This document shows, in pieces, positions 6,048 to 27,484 of a stretch of DNA of 48,181 nt. Numbering within the stretch: position 1 is the first letter of the stretch; each line of letters starts with the position of its first letter. Origin of the DNA: Candidatus Latescibacterota bacterium (lineage in GTDB: Bacteria > JAAXHH01 > JACQVL01); NCBI GenBank assembly GCA_016209865.1, contig JACQVL010000205.1, forward strand, positions 1 through 48,181, written 5' to 3'. The notes beneath the pieces are model-generated. The model made no database searches. It was not told the origin of the DNA and saw only the letters and a list, made by a program, of their open reading frames with translations. Made by a program: the position numbers and the translations under genes.

Positions 6048-6221
6048 ATGCCCGATATCTTCTGGATCTTTGCAGGGATTGCGCTCGTCATCTTAGCGAG
6101 CGGGTATATGAAGACGATGAAATATGCGCACGGCGGTCATGGGACGAGCGCCGAGTTGGATGAGATCAAACGGCGACTGGACCGAATCGAAGAACATTTG
6201 GACCTCAAAGAGAGTCGTTGA
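6048..6221 (+). CDS. Small single-TM protein with coiled-coil tail
   Basis: MPDIFWIFAGIALVILASGYMKTMKYAHGGHGTSAELDEIKRRLDRIEEHLDLKESR; SD gaaggaggga just upstream. Confidence 0.65.
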   Translation: MPDIFWIFAGIALVILASGYMKTMKYAHGGHGTSAELDEIKRRLDRIEEHLDLKESR

Positions 6222-7003: not shown

Positions 7004-7032
7004 TTGACATCTTATGGTCTCTCTTGTATCAT
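7004..7032 (+). promoter_or_regulatory. Sigma-70-type promoter for the PP2C/kinase/VWA/FHA operon
   Basis: TTGACA (7004-7009), 17-nt spacer, TATCAT (7027-7032). Confidence 0.75.
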
Positions 7033-7148
7033 CAACGCAGGTTAAACCGCGTGTGCTCTACGCGGGGCGCGAGAGCCCGGATGGGTTGTGGCAGCGCATG
7101 CATGGCCGCTGGCGGCGCGCGCGGGCGTTGTGGGGGGGGAGACCACCG

Positions 7149-8879
7149 ATGCGATGTCCAGGGTGCGGAGCGGAAATCTCGGAGACTGACCAGGAACAGT
7201 GTCCGTCGTGCCAGACCCCTTTGCTTCAAGCCGGGACGTTTCCTCCGGAGACGGCACCAGACTTCACGGCGCGACCGGCACCCCTTGCAGCCGGGACGCT
7301 CGTCCGGGAACGGTACACGATCCTGGATGTCCTGGCGCGTGAGGAAGACCGGACCGTCTATGTCGCGACCGAAGGGGGAAACATCCGGCGGTGTGTGCAA
7401 TGCGGTACGTCGACGCAGGGGGCGGAGAGCGAGTTTTGCGATGAATGCGGGGCCGAGTTGTTGCCCGGACGGTACCGGGTGACCGAATGGTGGACCGGGG
7501 TGGACCTGGCGGGCCTGGACGCGTTGACCCGGTCCGGTCTGACCCATGACGGCTGGGTCGCCCCGATCGATTGGTTTATCTGGGATGGACGCCGGTACAT
7601 GGCGCAGGTCGACCGCGACGGCCAGTCACTGCTGGCGATGAGCCGCCCGTCCGATTGCCTGGAGGTGCTGACCTGGGGGTTGACGCTCGGTGAAGCCATC
7701 AAGACGCTGCATACAAATGGGTTTGCCGGTCTGTTCCTCCATCCGAAGGATGTGATCGTCACCCCAGACCGCCGGATCAAGATCGTGGATTTTCGAGATA
7801 TCGTCGTCTATCCGGGCGGGCCGTCACTTCCTCAGGAGGCGGTGACCGCGGCCCAGCAGCAGGACATCCAGAATCTGGGGATGATTCTCACATTTCTCTT
7901 GAGTAACGGGCACGATCACCCGGAGACGCCCTGCGACACCCCGTCGTTTCAGTCCATCGTCACACGGATGGCATCGAACGGGTACCCTGAAATCCAGACC
8001 GCGCTCGATGACCTCCGGGGACTGCTCACGCCGACGCCGGTGACTGTGCCTCCTGCCGTCGAGCGCCCCCGGCCGCGGCGGAAGGGTTTGCAGTACCTGG
8101 TGGCGAGCCGGTCCGACATCGGTCAGGTCCGGGGATTGAACGAGGACAGTCTCATCACCCTCGACCTCTCCACCATCCGGGAGTCGAGCAACGAAGCGGT
8201 GGGGGTGTACATCGTGGCGGATGGGATGGGGGGCCATGAAGGGGGTGAGGTCGCCAGCCGGATTGCCGTGGGCACGATCATCTCCCACCTGGTTCACCCG
8301 GCCCTCCAGCCAACCCTCGCCGGGGGGACAGAGGGGCTGGATGAAGAGGTGTACGCGACCGCCCTCAAGGACGCCATCCATGCCGCCAATCAGGCAATCC
8401 TGGCCGCGCGACGGGAGAATTATACCGATATGGGCGCGACGGTCACGGCCGCCCTCGTCGTCGGGTCGTTCGCGTGCGTGGCCAACGTCGGGGACAGCCG
8501 GGCGTACCTGTTCCGGGAGGGGCGGCTCAAGCAGGTGACGATCGACCATTCCTTAGTAGCCAGGATGATCGCAGTCGGGATGGTCCGGCCAGAGGAGATC
8601 TATACCCATCCTCAGCGGAACCAGATCTACCGGGCCTTAGGAGACAGCACGAAGCTGGAGGTCGATCTGTTTCGGCTCACCTTGGTGCCGAGCGATCGTC
8701 TGATCCTGTGTTCCGATGGGCTGTGGGAAATGGTCCACGACCCTACGTTCGAGGCGATCCTCGGCGAGGCGGAGTCGCCCCAAGATGTGTGCGAGACGCT
8801 GGTGGCGGTTGCCAATGCGCATGGCGGGGAGGATAATATCTCAGTCATTGTCGTACAGGCGGTCGAGTGCGAACACTGA
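7149..8879 (+). CDS. Zinc-ribbon/kinase-like (probably inactive)/PP2C Ser/Thr phosphatase fusion
   Basis: MRCPGCGAEISETDQEQCPSCQTPLL zinc ribbon; a second CxxC pair ribbon (CVQCG..CDECG) inside a kinase-fold-like region; PP2C motifs SDIGQVRGLNEDS, VYIVADGMGGHEGGEVAS, VANVGDSRAYLFREG, LCSDGLWE. Start moved downstream of the promoter. Confidence 0.9.
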   Translation: MRCPGCGAEISETDQEQCPSCQTPLLQAGTFPPETAPDFTARPAPLAAGTLVRERYTILDVLAREEDRTVYVATEGGNIRRCVQCGTSTQGAESEFCDECGAELLPGRYRVTEWWTGVDLAGLDALTRSGLTHDGWVAPIDWFIWDGRRYMAQVDRDGQSLLAMSRPSDCLEVLTWGLTLGEAIKTLHTNGFAGLFLHPKDVIVTPDRRIKIVDFRDIVVYPGGPSLPQEAVTAAQQQDIQNLGMILTFLLSNGHDHPETPCDTPSFQSIVTRMASNGYPEIQTALDDLRGLLTPTPVTVPPAVERPRPRRKGLQYLVASRSDIGQVRGLNEDSLITLDLSTIRESSNEAVGVYIVADGMGGHEGGEVASRIAVGTIISHLVHPALQPTLAGGTEGLDEEVYATALKDAIHAANQAILAARRENYTDMGATVTAALVVGSFACVANVGDSRAYLFREGRLKQVTIDHSLVARMIAVGMVRPEEIYTHPQRNQIYRALGDSTKLEVDLFRLTLVPSDRLILCSDGLWEMVHDPTFEAILGEAESPQDVCETLVAVANAHGGEDNISVIVVQAVECEH

Positions 8880-8975
8880 GCGGCCAGGAGCGCATGACGG
8901 ACGGACGGGAGCGGGACGGTGCCAGAGGATCATCCTTTCCGACGGATCAGGGGCGCGGCGACGAGGTGAGGGGCG

Positions 8976-11882
8976 GTGAACAACCTCTTAAAATCTGGGA
9001 CAGTCCTGCAGAGCCGGTACCGGATTCTGCGCGTCATCGACCAGGGGGGCATGGGGGCCGTCTACCTGGCGGAGAACCTTCGGCTGTTCAACAAGGTCTG
9101 TGCCGTCAAGGAAATGCTCGACAATTTCTCCACCCCGGCAGAACGGCAAGAGGGTATCCGGCAATTCGAGCAAGAGGCGAAAATCCTCTCGTCCCTGCGC
9201 CATTCGAACCTCCCTATCGTCCAGGACTACTTCAGCGAGAGCACCCGGTATTACCTCGTCATGGACTACATCAAGGGGAGAACCCTGGAAAGTCTCGTCG
9301 AGACGACGCCAGACTTTCTCCCCGAATCGGTCGTCCTGAAATGGTGCGCCTCGGTCTGTAACATCCTCGAATACCTCCATGCCCAGCGCCCGCCGATCAT
9401 CTTCCGGGATCTCAACCCGCGCAACATTATGGTTGAGGACGGGACGGGAGAGGTCAAGCTGATCGACTTCGGCATCGCCCGGCTCTTCAAGGCGGGCAAA
9501 AGCTCGGACACCCTCAGCCTCGGCTCGCCCGGCTATTGCCCGATCGAGCAGTACGGCCGCGGGCAGACCGACGCCCGGTCGGATGTCTACACCCTGGGCG
9601 CGACGATGTACCATCTGCTGACGAAGAAAGTCCCGGTCGCCGCTGTGGAGCGCATCAAGCCGACCCCAGCGCTGCTCCAGTCGCCCCGCCAGATCAACCG
9701 GCGTCTGTCCCCGGAGGTGGAACAGGTCATCCTGAAGGCGATGGAGATCAGCCCGGACAAACGATTTCAGACGGTCGCCGAGATGCGGCAGGCGCTGTCC
9801 CATCCTCAGGCGCAGGCATCCGCCGCCCCGCGGCCAGCTCCGCCGCCGCCCCGGCAACAACCGGCTGCCCAGCCGCCCCCGCGGCCCCAATCAAAGACCA
9901 TCCCCAAGTCCGCGCCCCAGCCGCCGTCGAGGCCGCGCTCACACGGGATGCTCTGGTTTATCTTGCTCTTCATCATCAGCGCGGCGCTCGCGAACTGGCT
10001 CAACGACTGGCAGAACCGGCGATCCGGAGCGGATGCCCGGCCGCGAGGTGCCCGGAAGCTCGACGTGCCCGGATCAGCCACCGACCGGGTGAGCTTGATC
10101 ACCGGGGACCGGACAGACTGGTGGCGGATGGACGTCGACCATCCCTGCACCCTCAAGGTGACGGTCATCCCCTTAGATGCGGCGGGCAGGGTCCGCCTGG
10201 CGGTGTACGCGGACAACGGCCGGACGGTGCTCGATAAAGGAACCGTCCGGGCGAACCAGGCCGAAGCGATCGTGGCGGCGGATAGCCAGCACCCCCTGCT
10301 CGCCCAGGTGATGGCGCCCCGGCTGTGGGACTGGACCCGGTACACGATCAAGACCGAATTCACCCACGAGCGTCCGACCGGACTCTCCACGGCGTTGTTG
10401 CTCAGTCGCTCGCCCTCAGTTCCGCAGCCCGGAAGCAACACGACCCCGGAGGGCGCGCAGCCGCTGGCCGTCGGGACGGCGGTCCAGGGGAGCCTCGACC
10501 CGAGCCGCGGGCACGGGACGACGTGGTGGCGCGTCCGGGTCCCGACGACGGGGACGCTCACGGTCATGCTCAACCCCGGTACCCCTTCTCCGGTCGCCTT
10601 AGCGGTGTATGGGCCTGACGGGGCTGCACGATTGACCCCCTCCGCGAGCCGGACCCCGGGGAACGTCACCGTGAGCGTGCTCGGCCCAGAGAATTATTAC
10701 ATCAAAGTATCCGCGCAGGGGGCCGGAGAAGCGGGCCCGTACACGATCACGACTCGATTTTTCGACGACCCGGAGACGTTCTCCGGCCCGGACAGGGCCC
10801 CAGCGGGCGCGAACGACCTCCCGCTTCAGGAGAGCGTCCACGATACCGTCGCCTACGCGCAGGGGGACCGGACGGACTGGTGGCGGATGGAATTCCCCGC
10901 CTCCGGGCGGCTGACGGTCGACCTGCGGGCCGACAGTCCGGACGCGGTCCGGATGCGCGTGTACCGGGCGGTCGCCGTCCGCCAGCGCCAGCCGGACGAC
11001 TACGGCCTTCCGTTGAAGGAGATTCAGGGTAACGATGAGGTCTCGGTCGAAGGGAAAGCTGGAACCGTCTACTACGCCGCCGTATCGGGGGATCGCCCGA
11101 CCGACGCCAGCCGGTACGAACTCAGCGCCGACTTCGAGATCGACCCGGAAGCCAACTCTGGCCAGGATGCCCAGCCCGCCGGAGCCAGGCCGCTTCCGCT
11201 CAACGGCAACGGCCGGGGCAGCGTGGATTACGGCCGGGGAGACCGGTCCGACTGGTGGCGGGTGGTTCTTCCCGGCAAAGGGACGCTGACGGTCACCCTC
11301 ACCGGGTACCGGGCGTCGGCGGACCTGCAACTCGAACTCTACGACCGGACCGGGACGGCCAGGCTGGGCGAATCGACGGCGGACCGGAGCAGTCGTGAGG
11401 AACTCTCCCTCGACCTGGAGGACGGCGGCCCGTACCTGGTCAAGGTCTACGCGGACGCCTCAGACGATGCCAGCCCGTATGAGTTGAGCACCTGGTACAC
11501 GGTCGACCCGGAAGCCCGCTCAGGCCTGGATGCGACCGAAACGGGCGCGACCGAGCTTCGGCTGGGGAAACCGGTGACTGGGAGTGTGGATTATGACGCC
11601 GGGGATCGGACGGACTGGTGGAAAGTGCGAGTCCCCGCCGCCGGGACCCTGACGGTTGAACTCAAAGGGGCGCAGTTCATGATGGACCTTGACCTCAAGG
11701 TCTACGACAGTGCCGCCTCCGCTGTGCTGGCCGAGTCTTTGGCACGCCGGAGCAGCCGGGAACGAGTGTCCATCCCCGTCAAGACGGCAGGATGGTACTC
11801 CATCGAAGTGTACGCGAACGAGCCGGGCGATAGCAGCGGGTACACCCTGACTGCGGCGTTCACGCCAGGGAAAAATAAGTGA
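8976..11882 (+). CDS. Transmembrane Ser/Thr protein kinase with about five tandem PPC-like extracytoplasmic domains
   Basis: YRILRVIDQGGMGAVYLAEN, VCAVKEML, IIFRDLNPRNIMVE, KLIDFGIARLF, SPGYCPIEQYGRGQTDARSDVYTLGATMYHLLT; TM MLWFILLFIISAALANWL; repeated GDRTDWWR motifs. GTG start. Confidence 0.93.
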   Translation: MNNLLKSGTVLQSRYRILRVIDQGGMGAVYLAENLRLFNKVCAVKEMLDNFSTPAERQEGIRQFEQEAKILSSLRHSNLPIVQDYFSESTRYYLVMDYIKGRTLESLVETTPDFLPESVVLKWCASVCNILEYLHAQRPPIIFRDLNPRNIMVEDGTGEVKLIDFGIARLFKAGKSSDTLSLGSPGYCPIEQYGRGQTDARSDVYTLGATMYHLLTKKVPVAAVERIKPTPALLQSPRQINRRLSPEVEQVILKAMEISPDKRFQTVAEMRQALSHPQAQASAAPRPAPPPPRQQPAAQPPPRPQSKTIPKSAPQPPSRPRSHGMLWFILLFIISAALANWLNDWQNRRSGADARPRGARKLDVPGSATDRVSLITGDRTDWWRMDVDHPCTLKVTVIPLDAAGRVRLAVYADNGRTVLDKGTVRANQAEAIVAADSQHPLLAQVMAPRLWDWTRYTIKTEFTHERPTGLSTALLLSRSPSVPQPGSNTTPEGAQPLAVGTAVQGSLDPSRGHGTTWWRVRVPTTGTLTVMLNPGTPSPVALAVYGPDGAARLTPSASRTPGNVTVSVLGPENYYIKVSAQGAGEAGPYTITTRFFDDPETFSGPDRAPAGANDLPLQESVHDTVAYAQGDRTDWWRMEFPASGRLTVDLRADSPDAVRMRVYRAVAVRQRQPDDYGLPLKEIQGNDEVSVEGKAGTVYYAAVSGDRPTDASRYELSADFEIDPEANSGQDAQPAGARPLPLNGNGRGSVDYGRGDRSDWWRVVLPGKGTLTVTLTGYRASADLQLELYDRTGTARLGESTADRSSREELSLDLEDGGPYLVKVYADASDDASPYELSTWYTVDPEARSGLDATETGATELRLGKPVTGSVDYDAGDRTDWWKVRVPAAGTLTVELKGAQFMMDLDLKVYDSAASAVLAESLARRSSRERVSIPVKTAGWYSIEVYANEPGDSSGYTLTAAFTPGKNK

Positions 11883-12027
11883 CGAGTGACAAGTGACGAG
11901 TAGAGATAAAGAGAGAAATCTCTGGGGTGCTGAGAGCCGTTTGGGGTCGTTATTCTGATCCCTGGTCATTCTCCATTGATCGCTGATCTTTTCGCTCGTC
12001 ACTTGTCACTCGTCACTTGTCACTGAC
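11879..12027. repeat. Short-word inverted repeat, GTGACGAGTGACAAGTGACGAG family
   Basis: Left 11879-11903 gtgacgagtgacaagtgacgagtag; right about 11995-12026 ctcgtcacttgtcactcgtcacttgtcactg. Confidence 0.8.
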
Positions 12028-12052
12028 TTCACTTACTCTACGGAGGACACGT

Positions 12053-13303
12053 ATGGCTGGAGAGGTCACACTCCACTGTCTCATCAACCGGCCGATCTTT
12101 CCGACGACGCCAGGCCCGCAGTCGGTGTACGTCCTGATGGAAATCAAGCCGGCCACGAACCAGGTGTTCAGTCGCACCCCGGTGAACTTCAGCCTGGTGC
12201 TCGACCGCAGCGGGTCGATGGTCGGTGAGAAGATCGAGAACGTCAAACAGGCGGTCGGGCATGTTCTCGACCATCTCGCGCCAGACGACCTGATCTCGCT
12301 CGTCCTGTTCAACGAGCGATCCCTCGTCTCCCTGCCCGCGCAGCACATCCAGGACGTCGCCCAGCTCAAAGCGCGGGTGAACGCGTTGAAGGCGGAGGGA
12401 GGCACGTCGATGTCGAAAGGGATGCAGGACGGGTTGAACGAGCTGAAGAAGCACACCGGCCCCACCCGGATCAGCCGGATGCTGTTGTTGACCGACGGCC
12501 AGACCTGGGACGATGAGGCGGACTGCCAGCACTTAGCGTCGGAGGCGAAGCTGAGCGGGGTGACGATCACCGCCTTAGGGGTCGGGGACGACTGGAACGA
12601 GACGCTGTTAGACGCGATCGCCCGGAACAGCGCCGGGCGGGCGGACTACATCGACTCCCCCGCGAAGATCGTCCAGCTCTTCAAGGATGAGGTGCGCCAG
12701 CTCCAGGACGTCGTCGTGCAGGGAGTGAAGGCGGCCTTACGGCTGAGCAAGGGCATCGAGCCCCGCCGGATTTACCGGGTCATCCCGGACATCATCGACC
12801 TGAGCCACACCGCGCTGTCTGACCGGGATGTCGTCGTCGACCTGGGGGCGCTCGACAAGCAGCACGGTCAGACCCTCCTGATCGAGCTGGTGTTCCCGTC
12901 CCGGTCGGCGGGCCGGTACCGCGTCGCCCAGGCCGAGGTCTCGTACACCGTCCCCGGCGCTCCGGTGGGGAGCGAGACGGTCAGAGCCGACGTTATCATC
13001 ACGCTGTCTGACGATCAGACGCAGACACGCCAGCAGGTCGGGGCGGTGATGAACATCGTCGAGCGGGTGACCGCTTACCAGCTCCAGCTCGAAGCCAAAG
13101 AAGCGGCGGCGGCGGGCAACATCGCCCGGGCCACCCAAAAGCTCCGGGAGGCCGCCACCCGGCTGCTCGACATGGGAGAGGCGGAACTGTCTCAGGCGGC
13201 CACCCAGGAGGCGAAGAACCTGGAGCAACAGGGCCAGATGTCCTCGACCGGGACGAAGAAGCTTCAGTATGGGACGAGAAAGTTGACGCAGCGGTTAGAA
13301 TAA
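12053..13303 (+). CDS. VWA-domain protein
   Basis: FSLVLDRSGSMVGEKIENVKQAV (MIDAS DxSxS), LLLTDGQTWDDEADC; SD ggagg before ATG 12053; no obvious signal peptide. Confidence 0.9.
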   Translation: MAGEVTLHCLINRPIFPTTPGPQSVYVLMEIKPATNQVFSRTPVNFSLVLDRSGSMVGEKIENVKQAVGHVLDHLAPDDLISLVLFNERSLVSLPAQHIQDVAQLKARVNALKAEGGTSMSKGMQDGLNELKKHTGPTRISRMLLLTDGQTWDDEADCQHLASEAKLSGVTITALGVGDDWNETLLDAIARNSAGRADYIDSPAKIVQLFKDEVRQLQDVVVQGVKAALRLSKGIEPRRIYRVIPDIIDLSHTALSDRDVVVDLGALDKQHGQTLLIELVFPSRSAGRYRVAQAEVSYTVPGAPVGSETVRADVIITLSDDQTQTRQQVGAVMNIVERVTAYQLQLEAKEAAAAGNIARATQKLREAATRLLDMGEAELSQAATQEAKNLEQQGQMSSTGTKKLQYGTRKLTQRLE

Positions 13304-13386
13304 GGCAAGGACGAAGTACGAAGGACGAAAGGGATAAAACAGCCCGTATTTTCGTACTTCGTACTTCGACCTTCGTCCTTGCTCTT
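13303..13386. repeat. Short-word inverted repeat (AAGGACGAAGTACGAAGGACGAA / TTCGTACTTCGACCTTCGTCCTT)
   Basis: aaggcaaggacgaagtacgaaggacgaa (13303-13330) against ttcgtacttcgtacttcgaccttcgtccttg (13351-13381). Confidence 0.8.
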
Positions 13387-13406
13387 TATGACAAGGAGGT
13401 TCAGAC

Positions 13407-13865
13407 ATGGCAACCTGTCCAGCATGTGGCGCGCAGAATCTCGACAGCGCGAAGTACTGTGATGATTGCGGGGCGGAACTCCCTGCTCCCGCCGCCAGCC
13501 AGCCGTCCGAGTCAGCCCCGCCCGAGGCCGCGCCGGCGGCCGCGGCCTCGGGCGCGCACCTGGTCGTCGCCAGCACCGGTGTCACGATCCCACTCTCGAA
13601 GCCGGAGACCGTCATCGGCCGGGAAGACCCGGTCAGCAACATCTTCCCGGACATCGATACCACCCCGTTCGGCGGCCTCGAAGGGGGGATCTCCCGCAAG
13701 CACGCGAAGATCACCGAGCAGGGCGGACAGTACCTGATCGAGGACCTGAACAGCACGAACTACACCTTCGTCAACAAACAACGGCTCGACCCTGGCCAAC
13801 CTCAGCCGCTGTCGCCGGGAGATGAGATCCGGCTCGGCCGCCTCGTGTTCACATTCATGGTCTAA
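13407..13865 (+). CDS. Zinc-ribbon plus FHA-domain protein
   Basis: MATCPACGAQNLDSAKYCDDCGAELP; FHA core IGRED...GISRKHAKITEQGGQYLIEDLNSTNYTFVNKQRL; SD aaggagg. Confidence 0.92.
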   Translation: MATCPACGAQNLDSAKYCDDCGAELPAPAASQPSESAPPEAAPAAAASGAHLVVASTGVTIPLSKPETVIGREDPVSNIFPDIDTTPFGGLEGGISRKHAKITEQGGQYLIEDLNSTNYTFVNKQRLDPGQPQPLSPGDEIRLGRLVFTFMV

Positions 13866-16396: not shown

Positions 16397-16424
16397 TTGA
16401 CAAGGGGGAGAAGCCTCGTATATT
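16397..16424 (+). promoter_or_regulatory. Sigma-70-type promoter of the ilv leader
   Basis: TTGACA (16397-16402), 16-nt spacer, TATATT (16419-16424). Confidence 0.75.
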
Positions 16425-16479
16425 AGCTGATGTTTTCTCTTCTCGTTTCTGATTTGTCTGATTGCCTTGAGGAACCAGC

Positions 16480-16584
16480 ATGATGCCGCGCAAGCCCTCC
16501 ATTCCCACGATCGCCATTCTGTCGGGCGCTATGATCATCACGATTCTAGCGCCCATGACCCGGGGAGGGGACTGCGTGCGCTAA
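16480..16584 (+). CDS. Predicted attenuator leader peptide, Ile/Leu-rich
   Basis: MMPRKPSIPTIAILSGAMIITILAPMTRGGDCVR*: 34 aa with 6 Ile, 2 Leu and 1 Val. SD-like gagga lies about 7 nt upstream. Confidence 0.75.
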   Translation: MMPRKPSIPTIAILSGAMIITILAPMTRGGDCVR

Positions 16585-16610
16585 GAAGACAGTGCACTCA
16601 CCATCACACG

Positions 16611-16694
16611 GGCCATGGGCGAAGCGGTTGTCCATGGCCTGTGTTCGTTTTGTCTGTTGCGGCCATGGACGCTTCTTTGTCCATGGCTTTTTTT
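16611..16694 (+). promoter_or_regulatory. Transcription attenuator with mutually exclusive hairpins upstream of ilvH
   Basis: A GGCCATGG 16611-16618; B GTCCATGGCC 16630-16639; C GGCCATGGAC 16661-16670; D GTCCATGGC 16679-16687 followed by T7. A:B, B:C (10 bp perfect) and C:D (9 bp perfect) are alternative stems. Confidence 0.82.
16662..16694 (+). terminator. Rho-independent terminator (C:D hairpin of the attenuator)
   Basis: GCCATGGAC-gcttcttt-GTCCATGGC-TTTTTTT. Confidence 0.85.
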
Positions 16695-16714
16695 ATGCCG
16701 GCAAGGAGTCGGTC

Positions 16715-17236
16715 ATGCAACAGACGTTCTCCATCGTATTGAAGAAGAAAGATGACGCATTGGCGCGGTTGTACGGATTGCTCTGCGGCCGCGCGTTCCG
16801 CATCCAGAGCACGACCGTCGGGGCGACGGAAGACGATCGGTACTGGCGGGTGACGTTGGTCACCAGTCCTGAGGAGATGAAACTCGATAAACTCGTCAAG
16901 GAATTAGGACGACTGGTAGACGTCGTCGAGGTGACGAACCTGACGGACACGACGCATGTGAGCCGCCAGTTTGCGCTCATCTGGGTGCAGAGTCGGCCGG
17001 AGCATCGTCCGTCGGTCGAGCGGCTCGTCTGGCGAGACGGCGGGCAGGTGATCCAGGACACCCCGGCGGGCCTGACGATCCAGGTCATGGGCTGCCAGGA
17101 GGACATCGAGACCCTGGCACAGGCCCTCCGGTCCTACGGGCCGATCCGGATGACGTGGGTCGGACTGGTCGCCGTGAACACGTCCTCCGTCCTCACAGAC
17201 GAGCAGCCGGTCTATCAAGCGGCCGGGATGGCGTGA
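16715..17236 (+). CDS. ilvH: Acetolactate synthase small (regulatory) subunit-like ACT protein
   Basis: MQQTFSIVLKKKDDALARLYGLLCGRAFRIQSTTVGATEDD, LVDVVEVTNLTDTTHVSRQFALIWVQ, GGQVIQDTPAGLTIQVMG: collinear with IlvH/IlvN. SD aaggag at 16703. Confidence 0.82.
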   Translation: MQQTFSIVLKKKDDALARLYGLLCGRAFRIQSTTVGATEDDRYWRVTLVTSPEEMKLDKLVKELGRLVDVVEVTNLTDTTHVSRQFALIWVQSRPEHRPSVERLVWRDGGQVIQDTPAGLTIQVMGCQEDIETLAQALRSYGPIRMTWVGLVAVNTSSVLTDEQPVYQAAGMA

Positions 17237-23428: not shown

Positions 23429-26400
23429 TCATCGCATCACGATCATCCGACCGACTACGGCGACGGTTTTCCGGTCCGGAGAGCGTGATCGGGCCGTGAC
23501 CCGGTACAGGTATGTCCCATTGGCCAGCCGGTCTCCATCCCGGTCGAGGCCGTCCCAGTCGATCTGGTTGAATCCCTGATGTCCTGTGATGCCGTCGAGC
23601 GTCTGGATGAGCGTCCCGGCGACCGTGTACACCCGGACGGTCACGTCCGCGTCCTGCGTCAGCTCGAACGTCAACGTCGTCTTGTCGGTGAACGGGTTGG
23701 GATAGTTCATCGCGTTCGTGATGCGCAGATCCGTGTCCGCCACGACCGACAGGACGAGGGTGACCGCCGAGGGGTTATTGACGTTGTCCCAGGCCTTGAT
23801 CGTCACCGTATGCGTGCCGGGGGTGAGCAACGGAAGCCGGGCGGTCAGGCTTCCGCGCTGATAATTCCCCGTCTCATAGACGAACAGGCCCGTCACGTCC
23901 CGCCGGGTCCGGGCATCCCCGTCCGTCTGCACGGTGATCTGATGCCCGACTTCTCCCGTGATGTTGATCCCGCTCTCATCGAACAAAACGATCGTCAGCG
24001 CCGGGGTGGATGAGACGAAATCGTCCGACACGAACGGCCGTCCATCGACGGACACCTCGATCGCCGGTCCGGTCGAGTCCCGCACCGCCTGGCTGGAACC
24101 TCGGAGGGGGAGGAAATCTATCGCCCCGCTCCCGTCCGTCTGCCCATCCCACGCGTAGACGCTCACCCGTCCCCGGTCCCCGCCGTACGTGATGTCCCGT
24201 GGGACGATAAACGAAGCGGCGAACGTCCCCCGCTCGACCGCGACCGATCCCCGGAACACCGACGAACCCGGTAGTTGATACACAATCCGGCCGCCCTCTG
24301 CTGTAATATACGTCACGTCTCGCGCAGAATCCAGGGTCTGGACGAAGGCCGTCCCGGTAAACCCCGTGTCCGTCGCCCCGTCCCGGATGACCTCACCGTG
24401 GACGGCGGCGGTCTGGAGCACCCGCAGGGTATCGGTGGAATCGGGGGTGAACCGGATGGCGTGTGCGGGAGCGCCCAGGGCCATCGTCGGGTCGCCGAAG
24501 AGGAGGTATTTTTCGCTGTTCTCCCGGTTCCCCGTCTGGATCTTCGCGGCCATCAGCGCCGACCCGATGGGCAGGCGGCGTTGCAGGATTCCCTCGTAGA
24601 AAAACCGGTTCAGGATGATATTCGGCGAGGGAAACGACAGCCGGGTGGCCCCGACGAACGCGACCGCCCCCCGGTTCTCAGTCCGGAGCAGTTCCTCAGC
24701 CATCGCGTCATCCGTCACTAAGTCAAACCGCCCGGCCGTGCAGGTCGCCGTGAAGAACATCGGGAGTCGGTTGCCGTTGGCCAGCGCCGGCAGGTCCCGG
24801 ACGAGGTTGAACACATGCTCGTGGGCCCACAGGGTGGCCGACCCGTGTCCGACGTAGTTGACCAGGAGCGCGCCGTCGTTGAGCCGGGCGAGCAGCGCGT
24901 CGCGTGCCGCGGGCTTTTCCCCGGCGGCGTCGAGCGGGTACTCCGTCAGGTAGACTTTCTCGACGTTGAACGACCGCGGGATCCATTCCTGTGCCAGTCG
25001 TTCCGTATCCCCGGTGTGGTAAGGCTCCCCGAACGGTTGGCCGGGCGTCCGCTCGTCATCCGCCGTCAGCACGATCGTGTTCCGCCAGACCCCGAACTCC
25101 GGATGTGTTTCGTAGTCGACGATCTTCCTGACCGCGATGTCCGCCTGAGCGCGGGACTGTACGGCGAGCCGGCCGATCGCCATGTCGGGGTAGATATCAT
25201 CATCAAATGCCAGGTTTCCGTTCCCGTCGAAGTAGACGAACCAGTCGTCCGTACACCGGTCCCCGCTCTCGAACGGCGGAACCCAGTTCCCCCGGCTGTT
25301 CTTCGAATGGTTCTTGTAATCGTACGTCCCATCCCCGACGAGGAGCACGTACGCGGGCCGCCGGCCGGTGGACGACCAGATGAACGTGGCGTACCGCAGG
25401 AAATCCCGGATGGCTGTCGGGTCGAACAGTCCCCAGGCGAATTCGTCGTAGATGTCCGACGTACGGGCGACGAACACCTGGAGGCCGTTTTTCGTCTCGC
25501 GCAGCGTTTTGAGCGGCGTCACCATGTCGACGAACTCGTCATGGGCGACGATGAGGTAGTCGGCGGAGTTCGTGACAGACCGGAGGTTCGACCCGCTGTC
25601 CCGCTCGACCGCGACCGGCTGCTTCCAGCGAGCGGGCGTCGTCAAATGATATTGCGTCGGGTTGCCCGTCCTGACGGAATCCTGAAACCCGCCGGCCGCA
25701 TCCGTCGTGATCCGGACGATATCGAGCGGGTCGGTCACGTCATAGACCTGGGCGTCTGCGCCCGCGCCGGTGATCTGGTAGCGCACCGTCGGGCCGGTCG
25801 CCTGGGGGTCCTGGGCGAACGCCAAATCGCCGGCCCCCGCCTCTAAGGGTTTCCAGAACGACAGCTCGAACCAATCGAAGTAGAGGTGGTCGGGCCGGTT
25901 CGGGTCCTGGTTCTCGCGGGGGACGACGATCCGGATGTCGTTCGTCCCGGTCTTCAGCCACGGGCCGATGCCGGTGATGATGACGGGGATCGACTCCCCG
26001 CCCCATCGTTGTTCCCCGGCGAAGGTGCCGTTGATGAATACCTGGACGTAGTGGGTGAACTGGGTCTTGCCCTGGAACCGGAACCGGGCGGTGACGAGTC
26101 CGTTCCGGCTCACGGTGCCCAGGTCGACCCGGTACGTGGCTTCCTCCCGGAACCCGCCGTCGAACAGTTGCCAGAACCACTCCGTCCCGGAATCGAGCGG
26201 GTTGACCAGTTCGCGTTCCTCATGCCGCCGTACCGGCGTGTCCGTCTGGACGACCCCACCAGCGGCCTGGCCGCTGCGCGGCTGGACCCGCTTGCCGTTC
26301 GTCCCGTCGCCCGCCGTGAGCCAGTAGACGTTCGTGTCCGTGTACGGGTTCTGGTAGAACGTGTACGTCCGCGACCCCGACTGGAAGTCCCACCCACTCA

Positions 26401-27484
26401 ACGCGACCCCGTAGAAGAGGATGGAATCAGTCGAATCAAACCGCCCGTCCTGCTCGCCCGCGACGACGATCGGGACCTCGGTCAGGACTGGCCGGGGGGC
26501 GTCGAGGTCCTGGGGGAGTGCCCGGCTGCCGCCGTTGTACAGCCGGATCGTCCGCGGGTCGACGCCATTCACGTCGAACCCGGCGGCCTGGAGCGTGTTC
26601 GTATCGAGCCGGTAGAACCCGGTCTCCGTGAGTTGAACCTTGAACCAGTCGCCGGGACCGAACGCAGTCAGCCCACTAACGGGTTTGGTGATCGGGGGAC
26701 TTGCCGGGGAGGTCCACGGCGCGGCCGCGTCGGCGTTGAGGACGATCGACCGGTAGACCGGGTCGAGGAGGTCGGGGTCTGTCCGCCGGGCGGGCTGACC
26801 GGGCCCGGCCGGGAGGTTGAACCGGACCTCGACCCGGATGCGGTCGTAGAGCCGGACCCGTCCCGTGGCCGGACTGTAGGCGAGGGGCGCGATGAAGAGC
26901 GGCAGGACGGCGCGCCCGCGGAGGATGGCGGGACGGCCGATCGTGACCCGCTGTTCCGGGATGAACGCGACAGCGGCGTACGTGTTTCGATCCGGCCTCT
27001 CGTTCCTGAATCGTGGTATCCCGTCGAGCTCCTCGCGCTCGTGGATGAGGCCGGGCGCGGGCGCAAGCCGGTAGCCGGACTGCTCCCGGTAGGGCGCGTC
27101 GAGCACCGTGACTGACGGCGCTGCACCGGGTGGAAGGCCGATGAGGACGCGGCGTTCCGGCATCTGGGGACGGCCAGGGTCGGTCGTCGATGGACAGCGA
27201 GAGATCGTCAGCACGTCGAACCGTTCTCCTCCGATGGACACCGTATCGCGCTGAACGGGGTCGGGGACGTACTCGAACACCACACCCACGAGGTCGGCAC
27301 GCACCAGCCGAACATCGGGATCATCGGGTGGGGTTAACGCGCTGAGGGGAACAGGGAGTGCCGTGAGGATGAGCAGGCTGAACGCCAGGCTGGGGAGCAG
27401 CAGCGCTCGCAAAAAAACCGGATGCCATCGTGCAGAATTTCTCTCCTGGCGATCCGGCAGCGTCTGCCGTCTGAGCGTATCCAC
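23429..27484 (-). CDS. PorU-like C25 (gingipain-type) cysteine protease with FlgD-like C-terminal domain
   Basis: LLVNYVGHGSATLWAHEHVFNL...LPMFFTATCTAGRFD (His/Cys of C25), VAFVGATRLSFPSPN; C-terminal NYPNPFTDKTTLTFELTQDADVTVRVYTVAGTLIQTLDG...LANGTYLYRVTA. Confidence 0.9.
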   Translation of the reverse strand: MDTLRRQTLPDRQERNSARWHPVFLRALLLPSLAFSLLILTALPVPLSALTPPDDPDVRLVRADLVGVVFEYVPDPVQRDTVSIGGERFDVLTISRCPSTTDPGRPQMPERRVLIGLPPGAAPSVTVLDAPYREQSGYRLAPAPGLIHEREELDGIPRFRNERPDRNTYAAVAFIPEQRVTIGRPAILRGRAVLPLFIAPLAYSPATGRVRLYDRIRVEVRFNLPAGPGQPARRTDPDLLDPVYRSIVLNADAAAPWTSPASPPITKPVSGLTAFGPGDWFKVQLTETGFYRLDTNTLQAAGFDVNGVDPRTIRLYNGGSRALPQDLDAPRPVLTEVPIVVAGEQDGRFDSTDSILFYGVALSGWDFQSGSRTYTFYQNPYTDTNVYWLTAGDGTNGKRVQPRSGQAAGGVVQTDTPVRRHEERELVNPLDSGTEWFWQLFDGGFREEATYRVDLGTVSRNGLVTARFRFQGKTQFTHYVQVFINGTFAGEQRWGGESIPVIITGIGPWLKTGTNDIRIVVPRENQDPNRPDHLYFDWFELSFWKPLEAGAGDLAFAQDPQATGPTVRYQITGAGADAQVYDVTDPLDIVRITTDAAGGFQDSVRTGNPTQYHLTTPARWKQPVAVERDSGSNLRSVTNSADYLIVAHDEFVDMVTPLKTLRETKNGLQVFVARTSDIYDEFAWGLFDPTAIRDFLRYATFIWSSTGRRPAYVLLVGDGTYDYKNHSKNSRGNWVPPFESGDRCTDDWFVYFDGNGNLAFDDDIYPDMAIGRLAVQSRAQADIAVRKIVDYETHPEFGVWRNTIVLTADDERTPGQPFGEPYHTGDTERLAQEWIPRSFNVEKVYLTEYPLDAAGEKPAARDALLARLNDGALLVNYVGHGSATLWAHEHVFNLVRDLPALANGNRLPMFFTATCTAGRFDLVTDDAMAEELLRTENRGAVAFVGATRLSFPSPNIILNRFFYEGILQRRLPIGSALMAAKIQTGNRENSEKYLLFGDPTMALGAPAHAIRFTPDSTDTLRVLQTAAVHGEVIRDGATDTGFTGTAFVQTLDSARDVTYITAEGGRIVYQLPGSSVFRGSVAVERGTFAASFIVPRDITYGGDRGRVSVYAWDGQTDGSGAIDFLPLRGSSQAVRDSTGPAIEVSVDGRPFVSDDFVSSTPALTIVLFDESGINITGEVGHQITVQTDGDARTRRDVTGLFVYETGNYQRGSLTARLPLLTPGTHTVTIKAWDNVNNPSAVTLVLSVVADTDLRITNAMNYPNPFTDKTTLTFELTQDADVTVRVYTVAGTLIQTLDGITGHQGFNQIDWDGLDRDGDRLANGTYLYRVTARSRSPDRKTVAVVGRMIVMR

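Follow-up and report, generated by a model that had tools for sequence, protein, structure and literature searches.

Introduction

Much is known about the ribosome-mediated attenuators of Proteobacteria and Actinobacteria. In the ilvGMEDA, ivbL-ilvBN and leu attenuators of E. coli a BCAA-rich leader peptide is combined with an antiterminator and a terminator. The his attenuator comprises six segments, of which E:F forms the terminator. In the untranslated leader A:B blocks B:C, and the presence of A:B together with E:F results in termination, while a stalled ribosome gives rise to B:C and D:E and thereby to read-through (PMC4046918). Ribosome-mediated leaders in front of ilvB have been reported from several phyla (PMC10272879). 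In the literature we found no description of a ribosome-mediated attenuator from Latescibacterota.

The locus considered here is situated on contig JACQVL010000205.1 of a Candidatus Latescibacterota bacterium (assembly GCA_016209865.1), whose 48,181 nucleotides are referred to as the window. In an earlier note a four-segment ilv attenuator had been proposed for it. Ribosome-mediated attenuation is still the best reading, although not in the four-segment form, since six segments are needed. Nor is the target an ilv operon: downstream there is one diverged ilvN only, while the canonical operon is found on another contig. We consider it likely that transcription is attenuated in this region by a six-segment, ribosome-mediated device of the his type which senses charged tRNA-Ile and precedes the gene of a solitary IlvN, the regulatory subunit of acetohydroxyacid synthase (AHAS), with which isoleucine and valine synthesis begins. 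The six-segment layout resembles that of the his attenuator of Salmonella and E. coli (hisL, stems A to F), from which the locus differs in that its control codons are dispersed Ile codons instead of seven consecutive His codons, in that its target is a single regulatory-subunit gene and in that it stems from a different phylum. With the E. coli ilvGMEDA, ivbL-ilvBN and leu attenuators and with the Corynebacterium ilvBNC leader (ilvB-II motif; PMC10272879) it shares the BCAA-rich leader peptide, the antiterminator and the terminator in front of AHAS genes. The E. coli and Corynebacterium leaders, however, precede the catalytic subunit or the whole operon, whereas here an Ile-dominated leader precedes a solitary regulatory subunit. 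The mechanism is already known, whereas its target here is unusual.

Results and Discussion

Promoter, leader peptide and hairpins

The region, all features of which lie on the forward strand, begins with a sigma70-type promoter (16397-16424) whose elements TTGACA (16397-16402) and TATATT (16419-16424) are separated by a 16-nt spacer, just as the earlier note had it, and match the consensus at 11 of 12 positions. It is followed by a leader ORF of 34 codons (16480-16584; ATG at 16480, stop codon TAA at 16582-16584) which encodes MMPRKPSIPTIAILSGAMIITILAPMTRGGDCVR and is preceded by a GAGG Shine-Dalgarno site about 8 nt upstream. Isoleucine accounts for six of the 34 amino acids (binomial P = 0.002 compared with local proteins), and five of these are found within a core of 13 amino acids (P = 1e-4, the core having been picked post hoc). 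The ORF and its Ile-rich core are as previously described. Leucine contributes two codons only; control mainly by isoleucine with a minor share of leucine is the best reading. No homologue of the leader peptide is known.

Between the leader and the gene the previously proposed segments A (GGCCATGG, 16611-16618), B (GTCCATGGCC, 16630-16639), C (GGCCATGGAC, 16661-16670) and D (GTCCATGGC, 16679-16687) as well as the T7 tail (16688-16694) are all found, yet two further pairing segments within the leader ORF had been missed. These are segment 1 (GGGCGCTA, 16524-16531) and segment 2 (TAGCGCCCATGACCCG, 16547-16562). The others are numbered accordingly: segment 3 (16606-16622) is an extended A, segment 4 (16628-16644) corresponds to B, segment 5 (16661-16671), which serves as antiterminator or terminator arm, to C, and segment 6 (16678-16694) to D with the T7 tail, forming the intrinsic terminator. 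Segment 2 is able to pair either with segment 1 (16524-16531 with TAGCGCCC at 16547-16554, present in the MFE structure) or, save for one mismatch, via CGCCCATGACCCG (16550-16562) with positions 16609-16621 of A. The A:B pairing is real but longer than had been supposed, as the 3:4 stem of the MFE structure comprises 17 pairs. Both the perfect 10-bp B:C antiterminator and the perfect 9-bp C:D terminator exist as claimed, the stem of the latter amounting to 9-11 bp followed by T7. Hence, all pairings of a his-type layout are present, 1:2, 3:4 and 5:6 on the one hand and 2:3 and 4:5 on the other, with duplex energies of -20.9 (1:2), -25.0 (2:3), -31.0 (3:4), -22.8 (4:5) and -19.6 kcal/mol (5:6).

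With enough isoleucine, or if the leader is not translated, 1:2, 3:4 and 5:6 would pair, and formation of 5:6 would end transcription 20 nt short of ilvN, at the T7 tail. Upon isoleucine shortage the ribosome would stall at Ile13 to Ile20 and thereby cover segment 1, allowing segments 2 and 3 to pair and thus freeing segment 4 for segment 5; with 4:5 paired no terminator would form and ilvN would be transcribed. Promoter use, translation of the leader, ribosome stalling and the kinetics of the switch are predicted in this scheme.

Hairpin formation in the region downstream of the leader, which comprises A to D, is far beyond chance. The fold of 16585-16698 reaches -52.7 kcal/mol, whereas shuffles average -33.3 (z -5.85) and none of 200 is as good. 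Within 16600-16695 the MFE structure (-48.3) and the best fold which shares no pairs with it (-46.8) each outperform every one of 500 shuffles; together with the perfect 10-bp B:C pairing this indicates a mutually exclusive antiterminator. In 190 kb made up of the window and further loci, no other terminator hairpin was found whose arm has a perfect competitor of 8 bp or longer. Segments 1 and 2, in contrast, are individually only weakly above chance. The 1:2 hairpin is not unusual (58 of 500 synonymous re-draws are as good, P ~0.12), and duplexes as good as the best one between the leader and A (2:3) arise in 62 synonymous re-draws and 23 shuffles, out of 2000 each (P 0.01-0.03), so that the case for these two segments rests on their position and on the mechanism's need of them. 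We would like to note that segments 3 to 6 (16606-16690) may also adopt a giant hairpin in which 3:6 encloses 4:5 (-46.8 versus -48.3 for the terminating fold), and that the hairpin region contains four CCATGG palindromes. The latter may originate from a hairpin duplication which would supply the B:C pairing for free.

This leads to the best surviving alternative, according to which the region consists of constitutive tandem terminators or of a duplicated palindromic hairpin that senses no amino acid, the small ORF being incidental. A:B and C:D do resemble two copies of one CCATGG hairpin, the giant hairpin would be accessible to them as well, and the comparative searches yielded no support for sensing. 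However, promoter, Shine-Dalgarno site and Ile-rich ORF come in order before the hairpins, and the terminator ends 20 nt from the start codon of a gene belonging to the Ile pathway, without any promoter-like site found in between. We therefore regard this explanation as improbable. As the only promoter-like site found for ilvN sits 5' of the terminator, expression of the gene needs read-through.

Ribosome position and folding

In the four-segment attenuator as originally proposed the RNA of the leader ORF plays no part. Although its pairings A:B, B:C and C:D do exist and each of them is strong, nothing would connect stalling with read-through. A starts more than 20 nt 3' of the leader stop codon, and a ribosome residing at this codon (which ends at 16584) covers the RNA up to about 16596-16599, while the A:B stem begins at about 16606. 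A ribosome translating the leader can therefore never shield A, and with high or low isoleucine alike both A:B and the terminator would form. Masked folding agrees: with every footprint tried, A:B and C:D remain paired when the ribosome is placed 3' of the Ile codons. The mechanism in this form cannot respond to the ribosome, which renders it very improbable. In the six-segment attenuator it is the pairing of segment 2, inside the leader ORF, with A that provides the otherwise missing link between stalling and terminator.

To which codons this link would respond was derived from masked folding with three ribosome footprints, including -17/+14 and -14/+17. As long as segment 4 has yet to be transcribed, a ribosome positioned at Ile13 to Ile19 leads to a 2:3 probability of 0.83-1.0, and a stall at Ile20 frees 2:3 in two of the three footprints. 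From Thr21 on, the 2:3 probability is about zero until the ribosome comes close to the stop codon. Once segments 1 to 5 have been made, 2:3 together with 4:5 is partly kept upon a stall at Ile13 to Ile19 (0.3-0.8 with footprint -17/+14), while it is absent for later ribosome positions as well as for untranslated RNA. With footprint -14/+17 the stall window shrinks and Ile19 and Ile20 are lost at the later stage. Ile codons 8, 11 and 22 are not, or not fully, within the stall window. Accordingly, Ile13, Leu14, Ile19 and Ile20 (16516-16539) are the putative control codons.

The stall-dependent choice of the antiterminator is seen in masked folding up to a transcript end at 16675 but not at full-length equilibrium. 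There, the terminator is preferred or, for early stalls, shared with the giant hairpin, whatever the position of the ribosome. As the equilibrium of the full transcript favours the terminating fold, read-through has to be kinetic, as it is in other attenuators.

Least probable of all is that the leader ORF acts mainly via translational coupling, Rho-dependent termination or the binding of a protein or ligand to the hairpins, for while codon mutations in the ilvB leader of Streptomyces coelicolor left regulation unaffected (as cited in PMC1262725), the present locus possesses a canonical intrinsic terminator with T7, the Shine-Dalgarno site of ilvN lies outside the hairpins, and the Rfam covariance models, including T-box and riboswitches, yield no match to a known family in the window.

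The solitary regulatory subunit

The gene downstream of the attenuator (16715-17236) encodes a solitary, diverged AHAS small subunit of 173 amino acids and is preceded by an AAGGAG Shine-Dalgarno site; its start codon lies 20 nt past the T7 tail. As the next gene is convergent, it constitutes a single-gene unit, and no ilvB adjoins it. The protein matches TIGR00119 over residues 1-155 of 173 with 95.9 bits (cut-off 56.9), while it falls below the stricter cut-off of NF008864 (111.6 versus 119). It shows full-length matches to the ACT and C-terminal domains (Pfam ACT_5 and ALS_ss_C) and thereby resembles the IlvN/IlvH small subunits; among its relatives, the structures of E. coli IlvH (2f1f) and of plant subunits have been solved.

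From its relatives the solitary IlvN is set apart by an identity of about 30%, also to the canonical IlvN of its own genome, by the lack of an adjoining ilvB and by exchanges at four positions. In the numbering of E. coli IlvH (the sequence used being consistent with the 2f1f alignment) it carries Lys11, Asp14 and Arg29 where Asn11, Gly14 and Asn29 are present in 95, 95 and 98 of 100 aligned sequences, respectively, and Trp149 likewise occupies an otherwise near-invariant position. Changes of Gly14 and Asn29 in E. coli IlvH presumably give rise to valine resistance. Asn11 and Asn29 of this protein have been reported to participate in valine binding (PMC11893703). Since both contact residues are replaced in the solitary IlvN, by lysine and arginine, the loss of valine sensing is predicted from its sequence. 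Alternatively, the protein may be a decaying, dispensable paralogue.

If the prediction holds, isoleucine shortage might turn on a valine-blind IlvN which replaces or competes with the canonical, valine-sensing IlvN and thereby frees the single AHAS from inhibition by valine, a tentative suggestion that we consider possible but rather doubtful. The solitary IlvN would then be the regulatory-subunit counterpart of IlvG, the valine-resistant isozyme of enteric bacteria, and isoleucine synthesis would continue in the presence of abundant valine. Via the regulatory subunit present, the attenuator might set the response of AHAS to valine rather than its amount, which would solve in a simple manner the long-standing problem of isoleucine starvation induced by valine.

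Among the complete, strong TPP-enzyme matches, to which the scan was confined, only the canonical IlvB passes TIGR00118, and on this basis the idea that a second catalytic subunit of AHAS serves as partner was discarded.

Comparative searches and neighbouring genes

The canonical ilvB-ilvN-ilvC-leuA operon of the same genome, located on another contig, lacks such a terminator. A TTGACA-N16-TATnTT layout also precedes ilvB in this genome and in relatives, yet no terminator-type attenuator was found before canonical ilvB in either. Nor was a leader peptide combined with a terminator found in this genome before the genes of the ilvD family, hisG and the genes of chorismate-binding enzymes. A Leu-rich ORF of 25 codons (MPIGRTLVLLLPLLLWSLVGFPVPL, positions 6106-6183 of the respective locus) occurs 5' of the canonical operon; it has no terminator and a weak Shine-Dalgarno site, was not seen in relatives and possibly represents a second BCAA leader.

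No orthologue of the solitary IlvN was found in the other contigs of the genome, in 15 further genomes from the phylum or among 288 relatives, where the best match is 34% identical and the top three matches read as canonical IlvN. An orthologous leader on which covariation or peptide conservation might be assessed was likewise found neither in these 15 genomes nor among the 288 relatives. The oxidoreductase gene upstream is also without an orthologue in the phylum genomes searched. The 77 regions upstream of ilvB inspected from other phyla contain scattered ILV-rich ORFs or terminators, both together in a single locus (L129) and nothing evidently homologous. ILV-rich short ORFs without terminators are present 5' of ilvB in Rhodothermus (L071) and in Rhodothermales MAGs (L125).

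Misbinning of the contig was ruled out, as LepA encoded in the window is 78-80% identical to that of the phylum; among named relatives, those that match best belong to Candidatus Latescibacterota. Beside lepA, two adjoining signal-peptidase-like genes which appear alike by eye are located on the minus strand (285-1103 and 1215-1922). Inspection by eye also suggests a cluster encoding a PP2C phosphatase, a Ser/Thr kinase with repeated C-terminal domains, a VWA protein and an FHA protein (7014-13865) as well as, on the minus strand (23429-27484), a large gingipain-like peptidase (C25) that carries a C-terminal sorting domain.
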